Source of the DNA: Falsiroseomonas stagni DSM 19981
GTDB taxonomy: Bacteria; Pseudomonadota; Alphaproteobacteria; Acetobacterales; Acetobacteraceae
DNA: 64,000 bases
Direction: 5' to 3'
NCBI RefSeq assembly: GCF_900114315.1
Contig: NZ_FOSQ01000008.1
Coordinates: forward strand, 1 to 64,000
Made by a program: the position numbers and the translations under genes. Below the pieces are notes generated by a model. The model searched no databases and was not told the origin of the DNA. It saw nothing but the letters and a program-made list of their open reading frames with translations. Below, piece by piece: positions 1 through 23,745 of the stretch. Position 1 is the first letter of the stretch; every line of letters starts with the position of its first letter.

Positions 1-349
1 CTCGCCTTCAAGCGATTGAAATCCCTGCTGCACATCGACCGATTGCCCACCCGCACCGAGCGTGGATCGCAGAGTTGGCTCTACGCCCACCTCGTCCTGG
101 CCCTGCTCTGCGACGACCTCAGCCAGGATGTCCTGGAATCTTCCCCCTGAGGCGTTGCTCGACGACGCCTACACGCCCTCGCTCTGGGCCGTGCAGAAGA
201 TCGCGCTGATCGTCCTGCTCGGCACCGTCATCGGCACCGTCACCATCGCCGACATCCTGCATGCCAGCCCCAAGGCCCATCGCAGCCTCGCCAATGCGCC
301 ACGACGCCGAAAACCACACGTCAGCTACCCAGTCAGAAACCTATTTTAG
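1..349 (+). pseudogene. C-terminal remnant of an IS4-type transposase, frameshifted
   Basis: Reading from the first base, frame 1 gives a short peptide containing LKSLLHIDRLPTRTERGSQS and LVLALLCDDLSQ, which resembles the C-terminal end of DDE transposases of the IS4 group, and then meets a stop near position 148. The adjacent frame continues with DDAYTPSLWAVQKIAL and ends with an arginine-rich tail (LANAPRRRKPH) at 349, so one frameshift near 145-155 splits the product. The catalytic DDE residues would lie upstream, outside the window. No terminal inverted repeat could be identified. The remnant runs into the hairpin repeat at 357. The family call rests on remembered motifs, so a different DDE family is possible. 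Confidence 0.55.
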
Positions 350-356
350 CGCGTAT

Positions 357-423
357 GGGGGTCTCCCCCCCAGATCTTCCAGAGGGGGCGGATGGGGTAT
401 GGGGAAGGCAGCGCCTTCCCCAT
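357..423 (+). repeat. Multi-hairpin repeat, copy A
   Basis: This is a partial copy of the element also found at 12652-12782 and 22628-22758. It holds a GGGGG-TCT-CCCCC hairpin starting at 357, the linker CGGATGGGGT, and an 11-bp perfect stem (399-409 with 413-423) closed by the loop AGC. The ATG taken as the start of the following transporter gene overlaps the last two bases of the stem. The left part differs from the other two copies and includes a second C-run/G-run pairing around CAGATCTTCCAG. Confidence 0.75.
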
Positions 424-12582: not shown

Positions 12583-12651
12583 GGTGATGTCCCCTGTGGT
12601 GAGAATTCTGGGCGGGCGGCGATATGCGGGGCCGCGGGCCTGGTTTCAACC

Positions 12652-12782
12652 GTGGGGGAACGCCGTTCCCCCACACCCCCATGCCAAGGGGCAGCGGCCC
12701 CTTGGAACCCTCCAATTGACGATGGTCCAGGAGGCTCTGCCTCCTGGCGGATGGGGTCCGGGGAAGGCAGCGCCTTCCCCGG
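12652..12782 (+). repeat. Multi-hairpin repeat, copy B
   Basis: Four perfect hairpins follow one another: GTGGGGGAAC/GTTCCCCCAC with loop GCC (12652-12674), CCAAGGGGC/GCCCCTTGG with loop AGCG (12684-12705), CCAGGAGGC/GCCTCCTGG with loop TCT (12727-12747), and CCGGGGAAGGC/GCCTTCCCCGG with loop AGC (12758-12782). The linkers CAATTGACGATGGT and GGATGGGGT match copy C at 22628-22758, while stem bases differ in compensating pairs. The element ends two bases from the stop codon of the MaoC/Pta gene. Confidence 0.85.
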
Positions 12783-12784
12783 AA

Positions 12785-14071
12785 TCACCCCGCCACCAGC
12801 CTCAGCAACGCCGCCGATGCCAACCGGCTGTTCGCATCATCGCTCCGGCTCGTCAGCGCCATCGGCACCCGCAGCCCCAGCACGATCCCCGCACTCGCCG
12901 CGCCGCCGAGCAGGGCCAGCTGCTTCGCCAGCATGTTCCCCGATTCGATATCCGGGCAGACCAGCACATCCGCCCGCCCCGCCACCGCGCTGACGATCCC
13001 CTTCGCCTTCGCCGCGGCGACGGACACCGCATTGTCGAAGGCCAGCGGCCCATCCAGCAACGCGCCCGTGATCTGACCGCGATCCGCCATCTTGCAGAGC
13101 GCGGCGGCATGCAGCGTGGAGACCATCTTCGCCGTCACCGTCTCCACCGCCGAAAGAAGTGCCACGCGCGGCAACTCCACCCCCATCGCGGCGGCCAGCG
13201 CGATCGCGTTGCGGATGATGTCCGCCTTGGCGTCCAGGTCGGGATCGATGTTGATCGCGGCATCGGTGATGATCAGCGGCCGCGGATAGAGCGGCGCATC
13301 CATGACGAAGCAGTGGGAAACGCGGCGTTCGGTCCGCAGCCCGGCCTCCCGCGCCAGCGCCGCGCCCATCAATTCGTCGGTGTGCAGGCTGCCCTTCATC
13401 AGCGCGGCCGCCCGCCCCTCGCTCACCAGGCGCACCGCGACCTCCGCGCTCGCATGGCTGTGGGGCGTGGCGACGATCTCGAAGGCCGAGAGGTCCATCC
13501 CCTCCGCCGCCGCCCGGATGCGCGCCTCCGGCCCCACCAGGATCGGCGTGATCAGCCCGTGGCTCGCCGCCAGCAGCGCGCCACGCAGGCTTTCGGCGTC
13601 GCAGGGATGCGCGACCGCGGTCGGCACCGGCGGCCGCCCCGCGCAACGCGCCAGCAGCGCCGCCAGCATCCGGCGGGGCTGCGTGCCGAAGGGGCCAGTA
13701 AGGTCGCCGCGCCGCTCCGTGGGTTCCGACAGTTCCGCGAAGCCCGTCAGGATGGGCGATCCATCGGCATGGCGCACGGCGCAGTACAGATGGACGACGC
13801 CCGGATTGGACGGCGCCTCCACCTCCGCGGTGATCACCACCTCATCCCCTTCGGCCAGGGTGCCGGTGAAGGAAAAATCCTCTCGCAGCAGGCGGCAGCC
13901 CGGCCCTGGCAGGCGGGTCAGCAGCAGGCGCGTCATCAGCGTGGCGGCGGCGCGCACCGCCAGCGCCGGGTCGTCGGACCCGATCAGCGCCGCGACGGGC
14001 GCGAGTTCGGACGCCAGCACAAGGTGGGTGACGCTGTCGCGCGTGCCGGCGGGGAACAGGGTGGCGGTCAT
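12785..14071 (-). CDS. MaoC-like hydratase / phosphate acetyltransferase fusion
   Basis: A 428-residue protein. Residues 1 to about 130 resemble a degenerate MaoC/hot-dog dehydratase domain (ATLMTRLLLTRLPGPG, GDEVVITAEV). Residues from about 150 onward match the phosphate acetyl/butyryltransferase fold (HGLITPILVG, LMKGSLHTDELM, ALLDGPLAFDNAV, VLVCPDIESGNMLAKQL). Similar bifunctional enoyl-CoA hydratase/phosphate acetyltransferase proteins are annotated in alphaproteobacteria. It may exchange acetyl-CoA and acetyl phosphate; no acetate kinase is adjacent. The start overlaps the gpsA stop by four bases (ATGA), so it is the last gene of a rlmJ-gpsA operon. Confidence 0.85.
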   Translation of the reverse strand: MTATLFPAGTRDSVTHLVLASELAPVAALIGSDDPALAVRAAATLMTRLLLTRLPGPGCRLLREDFSFTGTLAEGDEVVITAEVEAPSNPGVVHLYCAVRHADGSPILTGFAELSEPTERRGDLTGPFGTQPRRMLAALLARCAGRPPVPTAVAHPCDAESLRGALLAASHGLITPILVGPEARIRAAAEGMDLSAFEIVATPHSHASAEVAVRLVSEGRAAALMKGSLHTDELMGAALAREAGLRTERRVSHCFVMDAPLYPRPLIITDAAINIDPDLDAKADIIRNAIALAAAMGVELPRVALLSAVETVTAKMVSTLHAAALCKMADRGQITGALLDGPLAFDNAVSVAAAKAKGIVSAVAGRADVLVCPDIESGNMLAKQLALLGGAASAGIVLGLRVPMALTSRSDDANSRLASAALLRLVAG

Positions 14072-15054
14072 TCGTCTCTCCGGGGCCGGGCCAGCAGCCG
14101 CCCCATCGCTTCCGCCACCGTCAGCTTCCCCGCGAGAAGGTCCGCCACCGCCGCGCCGATCGGCAGTTCCACCCCCGCCGCCGCGGCGCGCGCGACCAGG
14201 GCTGGCGCCGTCGCCACCCCCTCCGCCACGCCCACCCGCGTCGCCAGCGCTGCCTCCAGCCCCACGCCGCGCCCGAGTTCCATGCCGAGGGAGGTGTTCC
14301 GGCTGCCCGGCCCCGTCGTCGTCAGCAGCAGATCGCCGAGGCCCGACAGCCCCGCCGCCGTCTCCGCCCGCCCGCCCAGTGCCACCGCCAGGCGCGACAA
14401 TTCCGCGAGGCCCCGCGTGACCAGCGCCGCCCGCGCATTCTCCCCGAGCCCCGCGCCGATCACCGCGCCGGCGGCGATGGCGATCACGTTCTTGGCCGCG
14501 CCGCCGACCTGCACGCCCATCGGGTCATCCCCACCATACAGGCGGAAACCGGCGGTGCCGAGCCGCTCCGCCGCCAACGCCCGCAGCCCCACATCCCGGC
14601 TGGCGATGACGGCGGCGGCGGGCAGGCCCTTGGCGACCTCATGCGCGAAATTCGGCCCCGACAGCACGGCGGTGGTGGCGGCTGGGCGGAGCTTTTCCAG
14701 GATCTCCAGCGGCAGCAGCAGCGTCCCCCGCTCCACCCCCTTGGCGCAGACGACCAGCTTGGCGCCGGTATCCGGCAGGGCTTCAAGCGTCGCGCGCAGA
14801 TGCTGCGCCGGCACCACGAGCAGCCACAGATCGGCCCCCGCCAGCGCCGCGGGATCGGCCGTCACCTGGATGGCGGGGTGCAGCGCCAGCCCCGGCAGGT
14901 AGCGCGCATTCTCCCGCCCCGCCTGGATCGCCGCCGCCCGCGCCGCATCCCGCGCCCAGAGCGTGACGTCATTCCCCGCCCGCGCCGCCTGCTGCGCCAG
15001 CGCCGTCCCCCAGGCGCCCGCGCCGAGCACCGCGATCCGGCCTGAGCCCTGCAT
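14068..15054 (-). CDS. gpsA: Glycerol-3-phosphate dehydrogenase [NAD(P)+]
   Basis: A 328-residue cytoplasmic enzyme that reduces dihydroxyacetone phosphate to sn-glycerol 3-phosphate for phospholipid synthesis. The Rossmann motif GAGAWGTALA is at residues 11-20, GPNFAHEVAKGLPAA lies in the middle, and the catalytic lysine is in VGGAAKNVIAIAAG. A C-terminal helical domain with GLSGLGDLLLTTTGPGSRN completes the family pattern. The start at 15054 puts the cofactor motif at the normal distance; a longer frame upstream lies inside rlmJ. It is 8 bases after rlmJ and overlaps the MaoC/Pta gene. Confidence 0.96.
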   Translation of the reverse strand: MQGSGRIAVLGAGAWGTALAQQAARAGNDVTLWARDAARAAAIQAGRENARYLPGLALHPAIQVTADPAALAGADLWLLVVPAQHLRATLEALPDTGAKLVVCAKGVERGTLLLPLEILEKLRPAATTAVLSGPNFAHEVAKGLPAAAVIASRDVGLRALAAERLGTAGFRLYGGDDPMGVQVGGAAKNVIAIAAGAVIGAGLGENARAALVTRGLAELSRLAVALGGRAETAAGLSGLGDLLLTTTGPGSRNTSLGMELGRGVGLEAALATRVGVAEGVATAPALVARAAAAGVELPIGAAVADLLAGKLTVAEAMGRLLARPRRDE

Positions 15055-15062
15055 GAAATCCC

Positions 15063-15890
15063 CTATTCCGGCGTCACGCGGGTGATCCCCGCACCGGCCC
15101 CATCCTCGCCGCGGGAAAGCCGGGGCAGCAAGCCGCGCAATATGACAGCGGCCTGCTCCTCGAAGCCGAAGGGTGCGTTGGCCACCAGAAGCCCGCAGCC
15201 ATTGAGGCGCGTGGGGTCCAGCGGCTCCCGGATCACGATCTCGGCCGCGATGCAATCCGGCACGGCGGCGTCCTGAAGGGCGTGGTGGAAGGCGCGCACC
15301 GGCGCGCGGTGCTTCACCGGATACCAGGCGGCGATGATGCCCGCGCGGAAGCGGTGGCGCAGCCGGGCGATGGCGGCGGCCAGGCGGTCGAACTCGCCCT
15401 CCTGCTCGAAGGGCGGGTCGATCAGCACCAGGCCGCGGCGTTCCGGGAAGGGCGTCAGCGCCTCGATCGCCTCCCAGGCGTCGCGCCGGTGCACCGCCAC
15501 CTGGGCGTCGCCCCGGTAGCGGGCGCGCAGCGTCGCGTGGTCCTCCGGGTGCAGTTCACACAGCACCAGCCGGTCCTCCGGCCGCAGCAGCGCCCGCGTG
15601 ATGGCCGGCGATCCGGGATATCCGCCCGGATAGCCCAGCGCCTCGATCAACTGGAGATAATCGGCCAGCGCCGGGTCATCCGCCCCGGAGACCCGCCCGA
15701 TCCCCTCCCGCCATTCCCCCGTGCGCTGCGGCTCCGGCGCGGAGAGGTCGTAGCTGCCGATCCCCGCATGGGTATCCAGCACGCGGAAGGGCTTGGGCTT
15801 GGCCAGCAGCCCGCGCAGCAGCGCCACCAGCAGCGCGTGCTTGGCGACGTCGCAGAAATTCCCGGCGTGGAAGGCGTGGCGGTAATTCAC
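15063..15890 (-). CDS. rlmJ: 23S rRNA (adenine-2030 N6) methyltransferase RlmJ
   Basis: A 275-residue SAM-dependent enzyme that methylates A2030 of 23S rRNA. The start MNYRHAFHAGNFCDVAKHA is the family hallmark; the SAM-binding DTHAGIGSYDL, the ELHPED segment and the catalytic DPPFE motif are all present. It ends with about 15 extra residues after the usual family end. It leads the rlmJ-gpsA-MaoC/Pta operon and diverges from the toxin-antitoxin pair. Confidence 0.95.
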   Translation of the reverse strand: MNYRHAFHAGNFCDVAKHALLVALLRGLLAKPKPFRVLDTHAGIGSYDLSAPEPQRTGEWREGIGRVSGADDPALADYLQLIEALGYPGGYPGSPAITRALLRPEDRLVLCELHPEDHATLRARYRGDAQVAVHRRDAWEAIEALTPFPERRGLVLIDPPFEQEGEFDRLAAAIARLRHRFRAGIIAAWYPVKHRAPVRAFHHALQDAAVPDCIAAEIVIREPLDPTRLNGCGLLVANAPFGFEEQAAVILRGLLPRLSRGEDGAGAGITRVTPE

Positions 15891-15970
15891 GCCGCGGGGC
15901 TAGCGCCGGGCCCAAGGGGGCGCAAGGCAGGGCGGCGCAACCCGCTGGACCCTTGCCGGCCGGCACCGTA

Positions 15971-15988
15971 TCCGGATATGTTTCCGGA
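15971..15988. promoter_or_regulatory. Putative antitoxin operator: two TCCGGA palindromes
   Basis: The self-complementary hexamer TCCGGA occurs at 15971-15976 and 15983-15988, twelve bases apart, in the short gap before the antitoxin gene. The whole block also reads as a larger inverted repeat. Toxin-antitoxin operons are often repressed by their antitoxin at such sites; that role is inferred here. Confidence 0.45.
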
Positions 15989-16008
15989 AATAAAGGAGGC
16001 CCTGTTCC

Positions 16009-16281
16009 ATGGCGCCTGGCGCTCACCTGGCCGCCCACCGTCGCCGCCAGCGCAGCCGCGGCCTGCAGCGGCTGGAAGTGCAGGTCCGCGTCGAGGATGC
16101 CGCCCTGGTCCGGGCCATCGTCGCGGCGCTGGCCGATCCCGCCCAGGCCGAGGCGGTACGCGCCTCCCTGCACGATCGCTTCGCGCCCCGCCCCGGCCTC
16201 AAGGCGCTGCTCGAGGCCGCGCCGCTTGACGGCATCGACCTCGACCGCCCGCGCGACACGGGGCGGGAGACGGTGTTCTGA
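16009..16281 (+). CDS. Probable antitoxin of a VapBC-type module
   Basis: A 90-residue basic protein directly upstream of a PIN toxin. It contains LQRLEVQVRVEDAALVRAIVAALADP and a C-terminal LKALLEAAPLDGIDLDRPRDTGRE segment; similar proteins precede PIN toxins in other alphaproteobacteria. No classical AbrB, ribbon-helix-helix or Phd motif is clear, so the DNA-binding part is uncertain. AGGAGG at 15994-15999 fixes the ATG at 16009. Its TGA overlaps the apparent toxin start, typical of coupled toxin-antitoxin genes. Confidence 0.7.
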   Translation: MAPGAHLAAHRRRQRSRGLQRLEVQVRVEDAALVRAIVAALADPAQAEAVRASLHDRFAPRPGLKALLEAAPLDGIDLDRPRDTGRETVF

Positions 16282-16697
16282 CCTGGCTGGTCGACACCAA
16301 CGTCATTTCCGAGATCCGCAAGGGCGCGCGCGGCCATCCCGGCGTCGCCGCCTGGTGGCAGGGCGTGCGGGAGGAAGACCTCTTCCTGAGCGTGCTGACA
16401 CTCGGGGAAATCCGGCGCGGCATCGAGGGCGTGCGCCCGCGGGATCCCGCCAAGGCGGAGGCGCTGCAGCGCTGGCTGGCCGCCGTCACGGGCGGTTTCG
16501 CGGCGCGCATTCTGCCGGTGGATGCGCGCGTGGCGGATGAATGGGGCCGGATCAACGCCGGCCGCAGCGTGCCTGTCATCGACGGGTGGATCGCCGCCAC
16601 GGCGATCGTCCACGGCCTGGTGCTGGTGACGCGAAATGTGGGGGATGTGGAGGGGCTGGGCGTCAGGACGCTCAACCCCTTCACCGCCGGGCGCTGA
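16278..16697 (+). CDS. PIN-domain ribonuclease toxin (VapC/FitB type)
   Basis: A 139-residue PIN domain with the full acidic set: Asp6 (LVDTNVISE), Glu44 (LTLGEIRRGIE), Asp102 (PVIDGWIAATA) and Asp123 (TRNVGDVEGL). PIN toxins cut RNA, often tRNA or rRNA, and are blocked by the upstream antitoxin. There is no ATG, GTG or TTG in this frame between the in-frame stop at 16227 and position 16365, and a start at 16365 would delete the first catalytic aspartate. I therefore place the start at the CTG at 16278, which overlaps the antitoxin stop (CTGA). The start is inferred. Confidence 0.8.
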   Translation: MTWLVDTNVISEIRKGARGHPGVAAWWQGVREEDLFLSVLTLGEIRRGIEGVRPRDPAKAEALQRWLAAVTGGFAARILPVDARVADEWGRINAGRSVPVIDGWIAATAIVHGLVLVTRNVGDVEGLGVRTLNPFTAGR

Positions 16698-16698
16698 G

Positions 16699-16856
16699 AC
16701 CAACGGCCCGATGGACTGACATGCGGCCGGCGCAGCCGGCCAAAGCCGCGAATGCGGCCCGCCGCCAGTGCGGCGAGCCAAGGCCGCGGAGCGGCCGCCC
16801 GGCGCTTGAGGGCACTAAAAAGATACCAACGAGTCGCTGCAAGCGGCCGTTGGTAT
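16699..16856. repeat. Hairpin array flanked by inverted ends
   Basis: ACCAACGGCC at 16699-16708 is the exact reverse complement of GGCCGTTGGT at 16845-16854. Between them lie hairpins at 16725-16741 (loop GCA), 16745-16758 (loop GAAT), 16760-16775 (loop CAGT) and 16782-16796 (loop GGA). The right end is itself a near-perfect 34-base palindrome (16823-16856) with ATACCAACG/CGTTGGTAT arms. The layout recalls a small non-autonomous mobile or REP-type element inserted after the toxin gene. Confidence 0.7.
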
Positions 16857-16858
16857 GA

Positions 16859-17068
16859 CTACCGCGCCGTCACGGCCCCGCCCACCGCGCCGAGCCCGCC
16901 GCCCACCAGGGCGCCCGTGCCCGCATTGCCGGACAGCGACCCCACCGCCGCGCCCGCGCCGGCGCCCAGCAGGCCGCCGCTCACCGCCCGGCTCCCGGGC
17001 GAGGATCCGCAGGCCGCGACGGCAAGCACCAGCGCGACAGCCATCATGAACCGGGGTGCGAAACGCAT
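16859..17068 (-). CDS. Small glycine-zipper lipoprotein
   Basis: A 69-residue protein with a signal peptide ending in the lipobox LAVAAC, so the cysteine at about residue 20 should be lipidated. The rest is a glycine/alanine-rich zipper (GGLLGAGAGAAVG, GALVGGGLGAVGGAV) able to insert in or pack against membranes, as in small outer-membrane lipoproteins of the YMGG type. TGGAGGAT upstream fixes the ATG at 17068. It lies between the hairpin array and tsaD, on the tsaD strand, 62 bases after the tsaD stop. Confidence 0.8.
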   Translation of the reverse strand: MRFAPRFMMAVALVLAVAACGSSPGSRAVSGGLLGAGAGAAVGSLSGNAGTGALVGGGLGAVGGAVTAR

Positions 17069-17130
17069 CGGCGTATCCTCCATACCTGTGCGGTGGTGGA
17101 ACGCACGGCGCGCGATAAGGCTCCCTGGGC

Positions 17131-18195
17131 TCACACGGCGGTGACGGAAAGCTCCGCAAGCGGCCAGCGCGGCCGCGGCGCCTGGTCCAGTTCGTCGGTC
17201 AGGCCGAGGCGCAGCCGCTCGATCCCCGCCCAGGCGATCATCACGGCGTTGTCGGTGCAAAGCCGGATCGGCGGCGCCACCAGCGGCAGGCCGGCCTTCG
17301 CCGCCACCGCCGCCAGCGCGCTCCGGATGCCCTTGTTGGCCGCGACACCCCCCGCCACCACCAGCGCCGTCGCATCCGGCGCCATGGCCAGCGCATGCGC
17401 CGCCCGGTCCGCCAGCGTGGCGGCGACGGCGGCCTGGAACCCCGCCGCCACATCCGCCCGCCCCCGCTCGTCCAGCCCTTTCGCGACGATATTCGCCACC
17501 GCCGTCTTCAGCCCGCTGAAGGAGAAGTCGCAGCCCGGCCGTCCCATCAGCGGCCGCGGCAGCGCGAAGCGCGCGGGGTCACCCGAGGCCGCCAGCCGTT
17601 CCAGATGCGGCCCGCCCGGCCAGGGCAGCCCCAGCAGCTTGGCGGATTTGTCGAAGGCCTCGCCCACCGCGTCATCCAGCGTGGTGCCGAGCCTCACATG
17701 CCGGCCCACCCCCTCCACCCTGACGCATTGGCAATGCCCGCCCGACAGCAGCATCAGCAGGTAGGGGAATTCCAGCCCACCCGCATGCACCCCCGCCTTG
17801 AAGACACCGGGAAGGCGCGGCGTCAGCGCATGCCCCTCCAGGTGGTTGATGCCGAGGAAGGGCACCCCCGCCGCCAGCGCCATCCCCTTGCCGAGCGTGG
17901 CGCCCACGATCAGCCCGCCGATCAGCCCCGGCCCGGCCGTCGCCGCCACCGCCGCCAACCCGTCCGGCCCAATGCCCGCCTCCGCCATCACCCGCCGCAC
18001 CAGCCCCGGCAGATGCGCCAGATGGGCGCGCGCCGCGATCTCCGGCACCACCCCGCCATAGGGGGTGTGGTCCTCCAGCTGGGAGAGCACGGCCTCCGCC
18101 AGGATCGTCCCATCCGCCCGCAGCAGCGCCGCCGCCGTCTCGTCGCAGGAGGATTCGAGGCCCAGCACCACGTCACTGTCCCGCAACGTCCGCAT
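17131..18195 (-). CDS. tsaD: tRNA threonylcarbamoyladenosine (t6A) synthesis protein TsaD
   Basis: A 354-residue ASKHA-fold protein that, with TsaB and TsaE, transfers threonylcarbamoyl to A37 of ANN-decoding tRNAs. The [14 protein letters not shown] start, the metal-binding histidines His118 and His122 (INHLEGHAL), the [14 protein letters not shown] segment, [11 protein letters not shown] and [12 protein letters not shown] are all present. The frame stays open far upstream, but those residues are antisense to hemC. The ATG at 18195 gives the usual N-terminus; an ATG at 18231 would add 12 residues. It diverges from hemC. Confidence 0.95.
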
Positions 18196-18322
18196 GGGTT
18201 TCGTCGCCTGCACCACTTCCGCCTTCCCCATACCGGGCCTATGTCCCGCCGCCATGTCGGTAGCCCATCCCTCGGCCGCATCCCAGCCCGGCCCGCCCCA
18301 CCATGCCGCGGTCAAGCCGCAT

Positions 18323-19276
18323 ATGCGCTCGCTCCCGCTGCGCGTCGGCACGCGGGGCTCCCCGCTCGCGCTTTGGCAGACCCGCCACTTCCTCGACCTC
18401 ATCACCCGCTTCTGCCCGGTGCTGCGGGATGCCAAGGCGTTCGAGGAACACGCCATCACCACCTCCGGCGACCGGATCCAGGACAAGCGCCTGGCCGATA
18501 TCGGCGGCAAGGGCCTCTTCGCCAAGGAAATCCATGAGGCCCTGTCCGACGGAAGGATCGACTTCGCCGTCCACAGCCTGAAGGATCTGGAGACGGAGAT
18601 GCCGCCCGGCATCGTCCTCGCCTGCACCCTGAAGCGGGAGGATGCGCGCGATGCCCTGATCCTCGGCCCGTCCTGCAATCCGCCCGATCCCTCCGACCCC
18701 TTCGCCTGCCTGCCCGCCGGCGCCGTCATCGGCACCGCCTCCGTCCGCCGCCAGTCCCAGATCCTGCATGCCCGCCCGGATTTGCGGGTGGAGATGATCC
18801 GCGGCAACGTCCAGACGCGCCTCGCCAAGGTCCGCGACCCCGGTGGCCCCACCGCCTCCCTCCTGGCGCTGGCCGGCCTCCGCCGCCTCGGCCTGGAAGT
18901 CGAGGCCGGCGTGGTGATCGACCCGGACGCCATGGTCCCCGCCGCCGGCCAGGGCATCGTCGGCGTCACCGTCCGTGCCGATGACGTCGAACTGCACGAA
19001 CTCCTATCCGGCATCGAGGACCGGGAAGCGAAGGCCGTCTCCTCCGCCGAACGCGCCCTGCTCGCGGCGCTCGACGGGTCCTGCCGCACCCCCATCGGCG
19101 GCCATGCCCGCCTGCTGCCGGATGGCCGCCTGCACCTGACGGGCCTGGTCGCCCGCGCCGATGGGTCCTTCCTGCTGAAGCGCAGCCTGCACGGCGCGGC
19201 GGCCGATGCGGCGCGGATCGGGCGCGAACTGGGCGACAGCCTCCGCCGCGACAGCCCGGCCGACATCTTCGGGTGA
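18323..19276 (+). CDS. hemC: Hydroxymethylbilane synthase (porphobilinogen deaminase)
   Basis: A 317-residue cytoplasmic enzyme joining four porphobilinogen units into hydroxymethylbilane in heme and corrin synthesis. It shows [14 protein letters not shown] (8-20), the catalytic aspartate in HSLKDLE (Asp88), [13 protein letters not shown], and the dipyrromethane-cofactor cysteine Cys254 in [13 protein letters not shown]. The ATG at 18323 places RVGTRGS at its normal position. hemC overlaps hemD by four bases (GTGA) and heads the hemC-hemD-Mic60-hemY operon. Confidence 0.97.
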
Positions 19277-20019
19277 ACCCCGTGGCGCCGCGCCAGGTGC
19301 TGGTGACGCGGCCGGAGCCGGGGGGCGAGGAGACCGCCGCCCGCCTCCGCGCCCTCGGCCTCACGCCGGTGCTGGCCCCGGCGCTGGTGCTGCAGCCCCG
19401 CCCCTTCGCGGCCCCGCGCGCCCAGGCCATCCTCATCACCAGCCGCGCCGCCGCCCGGGCCCTGCGGCCCATGCCGCTTCCCCTTCTCGCCGTCGGCGAA
19501 GCCTCCGCCGCCGCCGCGCGGGATGCCGGTTTCGCGGATGTGACCGCCGCCGCCGGCACGGCCGCCGATCTCGCCCGGCTCGCGGCCGAACGCCTGCGCC
19601 CGCAGGCCGGCCCCCTGCTGCTCGCGGTCGGCGAAGGCTACGCCCTTGATCTGGCGGCGGACCTCCGCGCGCGCGGCTTCCGCATCCTCCGCCGCATCGC
19701 CTATCGCGCCGTGCCGGCCCTGACACTGCCGGAAGCCTGTCACGAAACCCTGTCCCGCGGAAAACCGGGGAAAATCCTGTTCCACTCGCCTCGCTCCGCC
19801 GCCTGTGCCATCACCCTGCTCCAAGCCGCCGGCCATGCGGCAACCCTGGCGGGGATGGAGGCGTTCGCGATCAGCCAGCGGGTGGCGGATGCCGCCGCGG
19901 CCGCGATCGCCCCCCTCACCTTCCGGGCGGTCCATGTCGCCGGCCGGCCCAGTGAAGACGCCTTGCTGGCGCTGCTGTCAGGCGGCGCCGCGGAACCAGC
20001 CCCGCCAGGAGCATCATGA
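19273..20019 (+). CDS. hemD: Uroporphyrinogen-III synthase
   Basis: A 248-residue protein that closes hydroxymethylbilane to uroporphyrinogen III with inversion of ring D. HemD sequences are poorly conserved, but [22 protein letters not shown] at the N-terminus, [27 protein letters not shown], and the C-terminal ILFHSPRSA and [13 protein letters not shown] segments match the two-lobed family pattern. The GTG start overlaps the hemC stop, and the gene overlaps the next one by ATGA, so all three are translationally coupled. Position directly after hemC is strong support. Confidence 0.93.
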
Positions 20020-21347
20020 GCGCCCCTCCCCCGCCCGCCTCCCTCCAGGACCGTCTTCGCCGCCTTCGGCTGGACCCCGCCGCCCTGCCCATCGCCGTGG
20101 CTGGCGTGGTGCTGGTCGGCGCCGTGGCCTGGCTGATCGCCCGCCCGCTGCCGGCCCCCACGCCCCCCGCCAACCCCCTGGCGGCGGAGGTCGCGGAACT
20201 CCGCGCCCAGTTGCAGCAGGTCGCCGGCCTCGACCGGCGCCTGGCGGCGCTGGAAGGCACCACCGCCCGCATCGCCGGCCTCGAGGCCCTGCCGCCGCGC
20301 ATCGCCGCCCTGGAAGGCCTGACCCAGCGCGTCACGGGCCTCGAAGCCCGCCCGCCCGTCGATCTCGCGCCGCTGCGCGACCAGGCCGCGGAAGCCGAAC
20401 GCCGCGCCGCCGCGCTGGAGGAGAAGCTGGCCGGCGTGGAACGCATCGCCCGCGACACCGCCGCCCGCCCCGCCATCGATCCCACCCAGCTCGCCGCCCG
20501 CGGCGCGGTGGAAGCGCTGAGCCAGCGCCTCGATCGCCTCTCCGACCGCACCGAAACCTCCATCCGCCAGGATGAGGCCCGCGCCGCCGCCGCCGCCACG
20601 CGGATCGAGGCGCTGGCGCGCGAAGCCGCAGCCCGCGACACCGCGCTGGAACAGGCCCAGGCCCAGGCCAGCCAGCGCATCGGCGCGACGGAAGCCGCGC
20701 TCGCCGGCCGCATCGCCGCGCTGGACCCGCGCCTCGCTGCCCTCGAACAGACCATCGCGACCCGCACCGCCACGCTGGAACAGGCGATCGCCGCCCGTGC
20801 CGCCGCCGCGGAAGCCCAGGCCGCCCGGCTCGTCGCTTTGGAAGGCGCGGCGCAGCGCCTTGCCGCCCTGGAAGGCCGGGCCGGCCGGATGGCCACCATC
20901 GATGCGCTGCGCGCCACGCTCGAAGCCGGCCGCCCCCTCGGCGGGGCGCTCGCCGGCCTGCGCGACGCGCCGGAGGCCCTGACCCGCTTCGCCACCGCGG
21001 CGCCACCCACCGAATCCGCGCTCCGCCTGGCCTTCGAGGACGCCGCCCGCGCCGGCCGCGCCGCCAGCGAACCGGCCCGCGAAGGGGCCGGCGTGCTGGA
21101 CAGCGCCGTCAGCCGCCTCTCCGGCCTCGTCACCGTCCGCCGGGGGGAGGACGTCCTCTGGGGCGATGCCGCCGCGGCGGAGATCGAGCGCGCCCGCCGC
21201 GCGCTGGAGGCCGGCGACCTCGAAGGCACCATCCAGCGCCTCGCCCGCCTCTCCGCCCCGGCGAAGGAGGCGATGCGCGGCTGGATCAGCCAGGCCGAGG
21301 CGCTGGTCGCGGCGCGCGCCGCGCTCCGCACCCTGGCCGCCGGCTGA
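20016..21347 (+). CDS. Mitofilin/Mic60-like inner-membrane protein
   Basis: A 443-residue protein with one membrane segment (about 24-42), a short proline-rich linker, a long alanine-rich coiled coil (about 55-320, many ALE heptads) and a C-terminal block containing VSRLSGLVTVRRGEDV and ARRALEAGDLEGTIQRLARL. This order and the C-terminal motif match alphaproteobacterial mitofilin (Mic60, COG4223) proteins, relatives of the mitochondrial crista-junction protein, often encoded among heme genes. It is likely to shape or tether the inner membrane. The ATG overlaps the hemD stop; hemY follows after 10 bases. Confidence 0.85.
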   Translation: MSAPPPPASLQDRLRRLRLDPAALPIAVAGVVLVGAVAWLIARPLPAPTPPANPLAAEVAELRAQLQQVAGLDRRLAALEGTTARIAGLEALPPRIAALEGLTQRVTGLEARPPVDLAPLRDQAAEAERRAAALEEKLAGVERIARDTAARPAIDPTQLAARGAVEALSQRLDRLSDRTETSIRQDEARAAAAATRIEALAREAAARDTALEQAQAQASQRIGATEAALAGRIAALDPRLAALEQTIATRTATLEQAIAARAAAAEAQAARLVALEGAAQRLAALEGRAGRMATIDALRATLEAGRPLGGALAGLRDAPEALTRFATAAPPTESALRLAFEDAARAGRAASEPAREGAGVLDSAVSRLSGLVTVRRGEDVLWGDAAAAEIERARRALEAGDLEGTIQRLARLSAPAKEAMRGWISQAEALVAARAALRTLAAG

Positions 21348-21357
21348 GGACGCCGCG

Positions 21358-22620
21358 ATGCGCAGCGCCCTCCTCTACCTGGTCCTGCTCGCCGGCGGCA
21401 CGGCCGGCATCCTCTGGCTCGCCCGTCTGGGTGGTGCGGTCGAAATCCGCGTGGCGGATGCGGAAATCCTGGTCAGCCTGCCGGTGGCGCTTCTGCTGCT
21501 GGCGGTGCTGTTCGCGGTCCTGCATTTGCTGCTGTCCCTCATCTCCTGGCTCCGCCGCCTGCCCGGCCGCCTCCGCGCCAACCGCGCGGCCAAGCACCGG
21601 GTGGATGGCGATGCCGCCCTGACCCGCGCCCTGATCGCACTCGCCGCCGGCACGCCCGACGTCGCGCGCATCGAGGTGAAGCGCGCCCGCAAGGGCCTGG
21701 GCGACACGCCCCAGACCCTGCTGCTGGCCGCCGAGGCCGAGCGCCTGGCAGGGCGGGAGGATGCGGCCGCCGAGGTCTTCCAGGCCCTCGCCGCCCGCCC
21801 CGATGCCCGCTTCCTGGGGCTTCGCGGCCTGCTCCGCCAGGCCATCCAGCGGGAGGATTGGCCGACCGCCCAGCGCCTGGCGCGCGAAGCGGAAGCCGCC
21901 CAGCCCGGCGCCGCCTGGCTGCGCCAGGAACGGGAGACGCTGGCGCTGCGCACCCGGGACTGGCGTGAAGCCCTGTCCCTGGCCGCGCCGGGGCCGACCC
22001 AGGCCGGGCTCGCGCTGGCCGCCGCCCAGCAGGAACCCGACCCCGCCCGCGCGATCGAGCTGGAACGCCAGGCCTTCCAGGCGGACCCCGCCTTCGCCCC
22101 GGCCGCGCTGGCCTTCGCCGCCCGGCTGCGCGCCGCCGGCAGCCCGCGCCGCGCGCGCGCCACGCTGGAACAGGCATGGGCCGCCCGGCCGCACCCCGAC
22201 CTGGCGCGCGACTACCTGCTGGAGGAGACGGACCCGCTGCACCACGTTAAGGCGGTGGAGGTGCTGATCCACAACAACACCAAGCACCCCGAAAGCCACC
22301 TGCTGATGGGCCGCGCCGCGCTGGCCGCCGGGCTGACCGGCCGCGCGCGGACGGAACTCGACGCCCTCGTCGCCTCCGGCCGGGCCGACCGGCGCGCCTA
22401 CCTGGCGCTGTGCGACCTGGAGGAGGTGGAGAAGGGCGAGCTGCCGGAAGGCCGCGCCGCCCAGGCGCGCTGGCTGCGGGCGGCCGCGACGGCGGCGCCG
22501 GAGCCGCGCTGGCGGTGCTCCTCCTGCGGGACGGACCATGCGGATTGGGCGCCGGCCTGCCCGGCGTGCAATTCGGTGGGCACGATCGGGTGGACGAGCC
22601 CGCAGCAGTTGCCGGTCTGA
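21358..22620 (+). CDS. hemY: HemY-like membrane protein with TPR and zinc ribbon
   Basis: A 420-residue protein with two N-terminal membrane helices (about 4-24 and 42-64), then TPR-like alpha-helical repeats across the middle. It ends with a four-cysteine ribbon, CSSCG then CPAC, in a WRC...GW context. This is the HemY N-domain family found next to hemC/hemD; it is not the protoporphyrinogen oxidase of Bacillus with the same name. Its role in heme synthesis is not defined, and a scaffold for heme enzymes is a plausible inference. The ribbon is typical of alphaproteobacterial members. Confidence 0.88.
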   Translation: MRSALLYLVLLAGGTAGILWLARLGGAVEIRVADAEILVSLPVALLLLAVLFAVLHLLLSLISWLRRLPGRLRANRAAKHRVDGDAALTRALIALAAGTPDVARIEVKRARKGLGDTPQTLLLAAEAERLAGREDAAAEVFQALAARPDARFLGLRGLLRQAIQREDWPTAQRLAREAEAAQPGAAWLRQERETLALRTRDWREALSLAAPGPTQAGLALAAAQQEPDPARAIELERQAFQADPAFAPAALAFAARLRAAGSPRRARATLEQAWAARPHPDLARDYLLEETDPLHHVKAVEVLIHNNTKHPESHLLMGRAALAAGLTGRARTELDALVASGRADRRAYLALCDLEEVEKGELPEGRAAQARWLRAAATAAPEPRWRCSSCGTDHADWAPACPACNSVGTIGWTSPQQLPV

Positions 22621-22627
22621 GTGGCCC

Positions 22628-22758
22628 GCAGGGGGGCGCCGCCCCCCTGCACCCCCCGCCAGGGTCCAGCCGGACCCTGGACGGGGGGCAATTGATGATG
22701 GTCCAGGGGGGTCTCCCCCCTGGCGGATGGGGTATGGGGAAGGCAGCGCCTTCCCCAT
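22628..22758 (+). repeat. Multi-hairpin repeat, copy C
   Basis: Four hairpins follow one another: GCAGGGGGGC/GCCCCCCTGC with loop GCC (22628-22650); a long stem with CCCCCCG and CCAGGGTCC arms paired across the loop AGCC with one bulged A (22652-22688); CCAGGGGGG/CCCCCCTGG with loop TCT (22703-22723); and ATGGGGAAGGC/GCCTTCCCCAT with loop AGC (22734-22758). It begins 8 bases after the hemY stop and ends 24 bases before the ureohydrolase start, so it may separate their transcription. Confidence 0.85.
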
Positions 22759-22782
22759 CAAGCCCCCAGGACCATCCCATCC

Positions 22783-23745
22783 ATGGATTTCCCCCAGCCC
22801 CTCGACGGCGCCATCACCCCGCGCTTCGCCGGCCCCGTCACCTTCATGCGCCTGCCGCAGATCGAGGACGCCACCCAGGTCGATATCGGCCTTCTCGGCG
22901 TGCCCTTCGACCTCGGCACCACCAACCGTTCGGGCCCCCGCCATGGCCCGCGGGAAATCCGCAACGTCTCCTCCATCATCCGCCGCGCCCATCCCGTGAC
23001 GCGGGTGGAGCCCTGCCGCCTGGCCCGCGTGGCCGATGTCGGCGACACGCCGACCAACCCGGCGGACCTGATGCAGTCCCTGCGGATGATCGAGGATCGC
23101 GTGGCGGAAATCCGCGCGACCGGCGCCTGGACCCTGGCGCTGGGCGGCGACCACCTGATCTCCCTGCCCATCCTGCGCGGCATCCATCGCGCCAGGCCCG
23201 ATCTCGGCCCCATCGGCATGGTGCATTTCGATGCCCATTCCGACACCAACGACACCTATTTCGGCGGCGCCCGCTTCACCCATGGCACGCCCTTCCGCCG
23301 CGCGATCGAGGAAGGGCTGCTCGACCCCGCCCGCATCGTGCAGATCGGCATCCGCGGTTCGCTGTTCGATGCGACGGACATGCACTGGGCGCGCGACCAG
23401 GGCGTGCGCATCATCACCATCGAGGAATTCCAGGACCTCGGCATCGATGCGACGATGGCGGAGGCGCGGCGCGTGGTCGGCGACCGGCCCTGCTACCTGA
23501 CCTTCGACGTCGATTGCCTGGACCCCGCCTTCGCGCCGGGCACCGGCACGCCGGAGATCGGCGGGCTGATGCCGCGGGAGGCGCAGCGCATGATCCGTGC
23601 CCTGCGCGGCCTGCCCATCATCGGCGCCGATGTGGTGGAAGTGGCCCCCCCCTTCGATGTCGGCAACGCCACCGCGCTGATCGCGGCGACGATGATGTTC
23701 GAGATCCTGTGCCTGATGGCGGAAGCACGGGTCACGGAACCGTAG
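22783..23745 (+). CDS. Agmatinase/guanidino-acid ureohydrolase family enzyme
   Basis: A 320-residue manganese hydrolase of the arginase/agmatinase family, which releases urea from a guanidino compound. Metal ligands are visible at His124 (GGDH), Asp150, His152 and Asp154 (FDAHSDTND), and Asp242 and Asp244 (FDVDCLDP), followed by APGTGTPEIGG. The sequence is of the SpeB type, but relatives act on agmatine, guanidinobutyrate, guanidinopropionate or proclavaminate, so I leave the substrate open. A Bug binding protein follows 54 bases downstream and could deliver the substrate. Confidence 0.9.
   Translation: MDFPQPLDGAITPRFAGPVTFMRLPQIEDATQVDIGLLGVPFDLGTTNRSGPRHGPREIRNVSSIIRRAHPVTRVEPCRLARVADVGDTPTNPADLMQSLRMIEDRVAEIRATGAWTLALGGDHLISLPILRGIHRARPDLGPIGMVHFDAHSDTNDTYFGGARFTHGTPFRRAIEEGLLDPARIVQIGIRGSLFDATDMHWARDQGVRIITIEEFQDLGIDATMAEARRVVGDRPCYLTFDVDCLDPAFAPGTGTPEIGGLMPREAQRMIRALRGLPIIGADVVEVAPPFDVGNATALIAATMMFEILCLMAEARVTEP

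Follow-up and report, generated by a model that had tools for sequence, protein, structure and literature searches.

A dispersed twin-hairpin repeat family resembling REP/BIME elements near gene 3' ends in Falsiroseomonas stagni

RESULTS

Hairpin units in the window

The window, the whole 64,000-nt stretch of DNA analyzed here (contig NZ_FOSQ01000008.1 of F. stagni DSM 19981, positions 1 to 64,000), contains three copies, A, B and C, of an intergenic hairpin element (Table 1). Copy B is flanked by the stop codon of a phosphotransacetylase-like gene (12785-14071, minus strand), which lies 2 nt from the end of the right outer hairpin, and on the other side by the start of an Hsp90 gene. Copy C lies between a HemY-like gene (gene end 22620), with its left outer hairpin starting 7 nt past the stop codon, and an arginase-family gene starting at 22783. 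Copy A is partial, retaining the final hairpin and part of the third, because the end of an insertion sequence (IS) directly adjoins it on the left.

By direct reading, B (12652-12782) and C (22628-22758) each consist of two facing twin-hairpin units, the unit being an outer hairpin, a CCCC-type linker and an inner hairpin. The left unit of B has the outer hairpin GTGGGGGAAC-gcc-GTTCCCCCAC and the inner hairpin CCAAGGGGC-agcg-GCCCCTTGG, and its right unit has the inner hairpin CCAGGAGGC-tct-GCCTCCTGG and the outer hairpin CCGGGGAAGGC-agc-GCCTTCCCCGG. The corresponding hairpins of C are GCAGGGGGGC-gcc-GCCCCCCTGC (left outer), CCAGGGTCC-agcc-GGACCCTGG (left inner), CCAGGGGGG-tct-CCCCCCTGG (right inner) and ATGGGGAAGGC-agc-GCCTTCCCCAT (right outer). 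The loops, linkers and paired stem differences of B, C and A were as the original prediction had described them. With up to two mismatches, GGAAGGCAGCGCCTTCC occurred three times in the window against 0.03 expected; the window copies are far beyond chance.

Folding of B and C was better than in all 200 shuffles on both strands (z of -7.0 and -6.2 for B, and -6.1 and -6.6 for C). The folds predicted for B had the two linkers paired with each other and, on the plus strand, the two inner arms as well, suggesting that an inverted pair can also form one large stem between its two outer hairpins.

Table 1. Positions of the hairpin units and of the adjoining insertion sequence in the window
Feature	Position	Strand	Basis or remark
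Right end of insertion sequence in the copy A hairpin	1..356	+	Junction uncertain by ~3 nt
A, one unit lacking its 5' part at the IS junction	357..423	+	Direct reading
B left unit, outer hairpin, 10 bp, loop GCC	12652..12674	-	Direct reading
B left unit, linker ACCCCCATG; partner of right linker in predicted fold	12675..12683	-	Reading and fold
B left unit, inner hairpin, 9 bp, loop AGCG	12684..12705	-	Direct reading
B spacer between units, with CAATTGACGATGGT tail of right unit	12706..12726	.	Direct reading
B right unit, inner hairpin, 9 bp, loop TCT	12727..12747	+	Direct reading
B right unit, linker CGGATGGGGT	12748..12757	+	Direct reading
B right unit, outer hairpin, 11 bp, loop AGC	12758..12782	+	Direct reading
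C left unit, outer hairpin, 10 bp, loop GCC	22628..22650	-	Direct reading
C left unit, linker ACCCCCCG	22651..22658	-	Direct reading
C left unit, inner hairpin, 9 bp, loop AGCC	22659..22680	-	Direct reading
C spacer between units, with CAATTGATGATGGT tail of right unit	22681..22702	.	Direct reading
C right unit, inner hairpin, 9 bp, loop TCT	22703..22723	+	Direct reading
C right unit, linker CGGATGGGGT	22724..22733	+	Direct reading
C right unit, outer hairpin, 11 bp, loop AGC	22734..22758	+	Direct reading

A dispersed family of two-hairpin units

BLAST with copy B produced at least 57 matches in its own genome (40 of 162 first-look candidates scored), some of them opposite-strand matches to the same palindromes. 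A covariance model made from 18 copies of the right half of B/C was run on 1.2 Mb of this 6.38-Mb genome and gave 112 matches at E≤1. Seventy-seven were taken into the site set, the remainder being mostly either weaker matches or echoes, one hairpin long, of stronger ones, and removal of overlaps and of matches below 21 bits left 63 units distributed over 47 sites. Fifty-nine of the 63 scored at least 28 bits; the doubtful low-scoring units at C22:203974, C22:415841, C22:141974 and C19:229530 were kept. Extrapolation from these 1.2 Mb to the whole genome gives roughly 300 units. The REP-type dispersed multi-hairpin element put forward in the original prediction is thus a family of many copies, and not of the few that had been named as contrary evidence.

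The sites comprised 31 single units and 16 inverted pairs, and the head-to-head order was identical in all 16 pairs, with the outer hairpins outside. Because of the single-unit sites and the uniformity of the pairs, a unit comprises two hairpins, and B and C are each a pair of units; of the four-hairpin outline first proposed, the hairpins stand, while the true unit is half of it. A unit is about 66 nt long, with an outer G-run/C-run hairpin, an oriented linker (e.g., ACCCCATCCG when read from the outer side inward) and a CCARGG..CCYTGG hairpin on the inside. Parsing succeeded for 49 of the 63 units and distinguished 18 inner stems, nine stem types accounting for 40 of the 49. The outer loop was AGC or GGC in 41 of these units and the reverse (GCT or GCC) in none.

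The covariance model matched all 14 other genomes of the genus and 11 of 20 genomes from other genera of Acetobacteraceae, and none of 24 genomes from other alphaproteobacterial families, counts that are floors since the filters were strict and at most 88 candidates were scored per genome. An exact pattern of fixed linker plus stem base returned 69 stretches from named genomes, every one belonging to Falsiroseomonas algicola, Roseomonas ponticola or one of two Acetobacteraceae MAGs (the F. stagni genome itself possibly being outside this search). A plasmid-borne family and a phage element were both rejected: the only plasmid match to B covered 45% of it, on a Roseomonas plasmid, and there was no phage match to B.

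Position relative to genes

Genes were called with a home-made gene caller, by which the genome is 91 to 94% coding. The position of the copies relative to genes, which the original prediction had named as something to look at, proved to be mostly at gene 3' ends: 23 of 46 sites were between convergent genes, 19 between tandem genes and 4 between divergent genes (copy A was excluded, having no left gene). Among gaps of 25 to 600 nt, the element was held by 23/74 convergent, 18/338 tandem and 3/145 divergent ones (Fisher P = 6e-11 for convergent versus the rest and P = 0.002 for divergent versus the rest). At 38 of the 47 sites a stop codon lay within 30 nt of the element's edge or was overlapped by up to 40 nt. 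When the 60 stop-to-edge distances below 60 nt were considered, 37 fell between -3 and +6 nt and nine were exactly -3, meaning that the stop codon overlaps the first or last three letters of the unit. The small gaps of so densely coding a genome partly force this placement. Tandem sites were nearer the stop than the start in 14 of 18 usable cases (P = 0.03; 19 in all, 1 dropped), and single units at tandem sites did not clearly favor one orientation with respect to the gene (by hand count, 6 had the inner and 4 the outer hairpin first). The element was present in 12 of 26 convergent gaps of 60 to 89 nt and in none of 15 gaps of 25 to 59 nt. A further 67 of 155 convergent neighbors overlap or are at most 12 nt apart and carry no element; being too close to hold one, they indicate that no hairpin is needed there.

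BIMEs are bound by gyrase and IHF, and paired inverted units could likewise act at the DNA level, as putative cruciforms or protein-binding sites (gyrase, IHF) between convergent genes. The inverted pairs, the two-strand symmetry and the convergent enrichment are in keeping with such a role, which we nevertheless consider improbable, given that convergent sites made up 16 of 30 single-unit sites and 7 of 16 paired sites, indicating that the pairing of units is not tied to convergence.

No terminator-like site was found at B or C. None of the 63 units had TTTT within 8 nt past its outer hairpin, and one had it within that distance past its inner hairpin (4 of 63 when the distance past the inner hairpin was extended to 22 nt). 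With U runs directly behind the hairpins nearly absent, the element is not a canonical intrinsic terminator.

Orthologous sites in relatives

Three relatives (G005, G012 and G013) were compared at the F. stagni sites, with flanks about 77 to 96% identical. By hand count, units were present in 38 of 62 ortholog comparisons and another hairpin family in 9, while 6 places were bare, 4 gave no parsed unit, 4 were rearranged and 1 was a false-positive site; by eye, C22:70122, scored as having no parsed unit, holds a composite, and C19:229530, scored as rearranged, holds a unit. Site B has a pair in F. stagni only and a single unit in each of the three relatives. Site C has a pair in G005 and G013, in which the first outer and second inner hairpins are replaced, and the other hairpin family, CCCTC(T)CCC/GGGGAGGG, in G012. 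At C19:171318, the stop codons are joined directly in G005 and G013, while F. stagni and G012 have one unit; no target-site duplication was evident at this one clean bare site.

A survey of convergent gaps against G005 covered 54 gaps with an ortholog and 27 without, and the presence of a hairpin was conserved (16/19 against 7/35). The hairpin family differed in 3 of the 16 kept gaps, indicating that one family does replace another where a hairpin is retained, though not as a rule. A different palindromic family (CCCTCTCCCC/GGGGAGAGGG and CCCTCCCCCGC/GCGGGGGAGGG) was seen in relatives at the orthologs of C19 positions 22627, 85302, 108818, 177492, 192006 and 210305, where F. stagni has units.

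Search for a mobilizing transposase

The original prediction had considered mobilization by a distant Y1/RAYT transposase. No Y1/RAYT gene (PF01797) was found in any of the 15 genus genomes, including that of F. stagni, while 5 of 14 control genomes were positive; this part of the prediction was therefore not borne out for the genome or the genus. More generally, the family might be a non-autonomous mobile element of the REP/MITE type that a transposase acting in trans places next to stop codons, its 3' location being tolerated rather than functional. The clean stop-to-stop junction at C19:171318, the 6 bare comparisons of 62 and the occupation of convergent gaps of 60 to 89 nt but not of 25 to 59 nt argue for this. 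We regard it as doubtful in view of the negative transposase search (which covered the Y1 type only), the lack of an evident target-site duplication and the retention of a unit in 38 of 62 comparisons, which record presence or absence and not the direction of gain or loss.

In the IS end adjoining copy A, nucleotides 1 to 147 of the window code for a fragment that weakly resembles PF01609 (E = 0.011, which falls short of the curated cutoff). Among the matches listed for the IS right end in F. stagni (40 of 165 candidates scored), 4 of 4 (window 1-356, L252, L254 and L255) sit in twin-hairpin stems, at most about 5 nt from the loop, each at a contig end and with the junction uncertain by about 3 nt. 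The right end had no match in 14 other genomes of the genus, and nearly the same query gave matches in F. stagni.

Covariation and turnover of the stems

Eighteen copies, 17 of them distinct, were aligned with MAFFT; 98.8% of the cells were paired against 92.7% in shuffles, and 26 cells were changed on both sides against 8.2 in shuffles. One of five measures, the number of further pair types, was not above the shuffles (8 against 6.6, with 82 of 500 reaching 8). A second set consisted of copies found by their linker letters and kept if they had at least 7 of 9 pairs. It retained 19 of 28 anchors in F. stagni (mean of 8.89 pairs, against 8.11 for the best of 1,000 permutations) and 13 of 19 in relatives (8.92 against 8.46). 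Overall, 32 of the 47 anchors had 8 or 9 of 9 pairs, 15 (9 from F. stagni and 6 from relatives) had 4 or fewer, and none had 5 to 7; those with 4 or fewer are probably chance anchors. The covariation is real and lies above the controls used (permutations and slides), which supports the original prediction, whose contrary outcome of no supported covariation did not occur.

Orthologous inner stems were then compared in 30 nonindependent comparisons at 17 sites, a set biased toward paired stems by the requirement for at least 7 of 9 pairs and including comparisons of unlike architecture (C19:12651, C19:135026 and C22:4737). Ten stems were identical, 17 had changed with every pair intact and 3 had a mismatch. 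The 40 pairs changed on both sides comprised 27 CG<->GC, 9 AT<->GC and 4 GC<->TA changes. In the 49 of 63 units parsed, which were chosen for pairing, there were 10 mismatches in 970 cells, too few for an asymmetry between G-U and A-C mismatches to tell RNA from DNA selection. Neighboring hairpins changed independently: at C19:22627, the first outer and second inner hairpins differ in G005 and G013, with the first inner hairpin unchanged and the core of the second outer hairpin kept, and the change affected only the inner stem at C38:9719 and the outer stem plus linker at C19:177492.

It had been argued that paired change with fixed loops means that folding is selected. The paired change was found, but selection on folding is not established by it, since the changes are mostly C-G/G-C swaps between recurrent types with few intermediates. 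A structured RNA kept by ordinary compensatory mutation, because the RNA of the 3' untranslated region must fold, would account for the strong pairing and covariation, the position downstream of genes, the very stable folds and the single orientation of the outer loops. It sits less easily with the 27 of 40 double changes that are CG<->GC and not favored by a G-U path (although AT pairs are rarer anyway in a 71% GC genome), the absence of linker-anchored copies with 5 to 7 pairs, and the coverage of 40 of 49 parsed units by nine stem types. Nor did an Rfam family match: of 4,227 models, none reached its gathering score in the window and none reached E≤1 in 12600-22800. On balance, we think a selected structured RNA rather unlikely.

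Double transversions, few intermediates, recurrent stems and independent hairpins are hard to obtain by point mutation and RNA selection alone. The predominance of CG<->GC swaps, the few recurrent stem types and the independence of neighbors suggest that DNA-level replacement or arm copying is no worse an explanation, and perhaps a better one, than stepwise selection on RNA. An exchange of blocks among family members fits the stem patterns, from which we infer it, and template switching fits the stem changes in part; no loop inversion was seen in twin-hairpin copies. Covariation arising mainly from such DNA-level turnover, by sister copies overwriting one hairpin at a time or by template switching, without RNA selection, has in our judgment a little less than an even chance.

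DISCUSSION

Relation to known repeat families

The twin-hairpin family is dispersed and noncoding and resembles REP/BIME elements in kind. According to the sections of Di Nocera et al. (2013, PMC3733652) used here, which deal with the GTAG and CGTC superfamilies, REPs are short, extragenic, high-copy palindromes near gene 3' ends, mostly between convergent or tandem genes, and often form head-to-head dimers, also of unlike partners; here, 16 of 47 sites are inverted pairs. The present unit differs in having two hairpins and an oriented linker. RAYT-associated GTAG REPs differ further, the present family having neither a conserved end tag nor a RAYT gene in 15 genus genomes; GTAG occurs inside 5 of 63 units, with no conserved GTAG tag, and the linker variant CGGTAGGGG contains GTAG. 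In the same sections, CGTC REPs are described as having an unpaired CGTC tag, a stem of 8 to 9 bp starting with A/T pairs and a CCA tail, and as missing from Acetobacteraceae (PMC3733652), whereas by eye the stems described here begin with CC, and on one strand a variable CGTC-like string follows the inner stem on its 3' side. Since the general REP/BIME features are present and the defining features tested for the GTAG/RAYT and CGTC kinds are lacking, we regard the family as a new REP/BIME-like variant. RIME, other alphaproteobacterial mosaic elements and DUS-type inverted-repeat terminators are also paired palindromes at gene ends. No description of the twin-hairpin family was found among the papers listed in open-access searches on palindromic or intergenic repeats of Acetobacteraceae, Roseomonas or alphaproteobacteria.

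REPs can also be targets of insertion sequences, as set out in the portion of Tobes and Pareja (2006, PMC1525189) cited here, and an IS likewise lies in hairpins of this family; unlike the REP-IS pairs of that account, it is known only from its right end at contig ends.

A model for the role and turnover of the hairpins

From their position, two-way symmetry and stability, the hairpins probably serve as putative two-way 3'-end hairpins. Transcripts of the upstream gene, or of both genes at convergent sites, would run into the hairpins, which might stop 3'-to-5' decay, read-through or both, in either direction. Individual hairpins may be overwritten as blocks by copies of other family members through recombination or gene conversion or, alternatively, be recopied arm to arm by template switching. 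By either route the stems would stay paired while their sequence turns over. A joint explanation, combining a REP/BIME-like family, a 3'-end hairpin role and block replacement or arm recopying of hairpins, is the one we favor with moderate confidence.

The passages of Monttinen and Löytynoja (2022, PMC8794818) that bear on this report that template switching yields multibase compensated changes in RNA genes. Compensated changes of several stem pairs are common to those hairpins and the present ones (PMC8794818), which differ in being intergenic repeats with no loop inversion seen and with a pool of sister copies that offers donors.

If hairpins are exchanged as blocks, covariation can arise in repeat families without RNA function. 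Base-pair covariation usually counts as a strong argument for a functional RNA structure, and in the twin-hairpin family it does not prove RNA function. If DNA-level turnover is indeed the cause, such repeats would naturally turn up as false positives when RNAs are sought by covariation, and would offer a bacterial test bed for the template-switch model. Acetobacteraceae, reported to be without CGTC REPs in the sections of the 2013 survey used here (PMC3733652), have their own set of some hundreds of gene-end hairpins, whose orthologous sites can be compared directly.

Variant architectures

Two further arrangements were observed. A subfamily with an insert of about 15 nt (like CAGATCTTCCAGAGG) in the inner stem is represented by copy A (window 353-423) and by the 81-nt matches L034, L053 and L077. 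Composite sites with a third, longer palindrome between two units were seen at C19:157679, C19:188007, C22:70122 and C22:383440, and the central palindrome at C19:157679 (L078) and C22:383440 (L050) has several compensated pair differences between closely related species.
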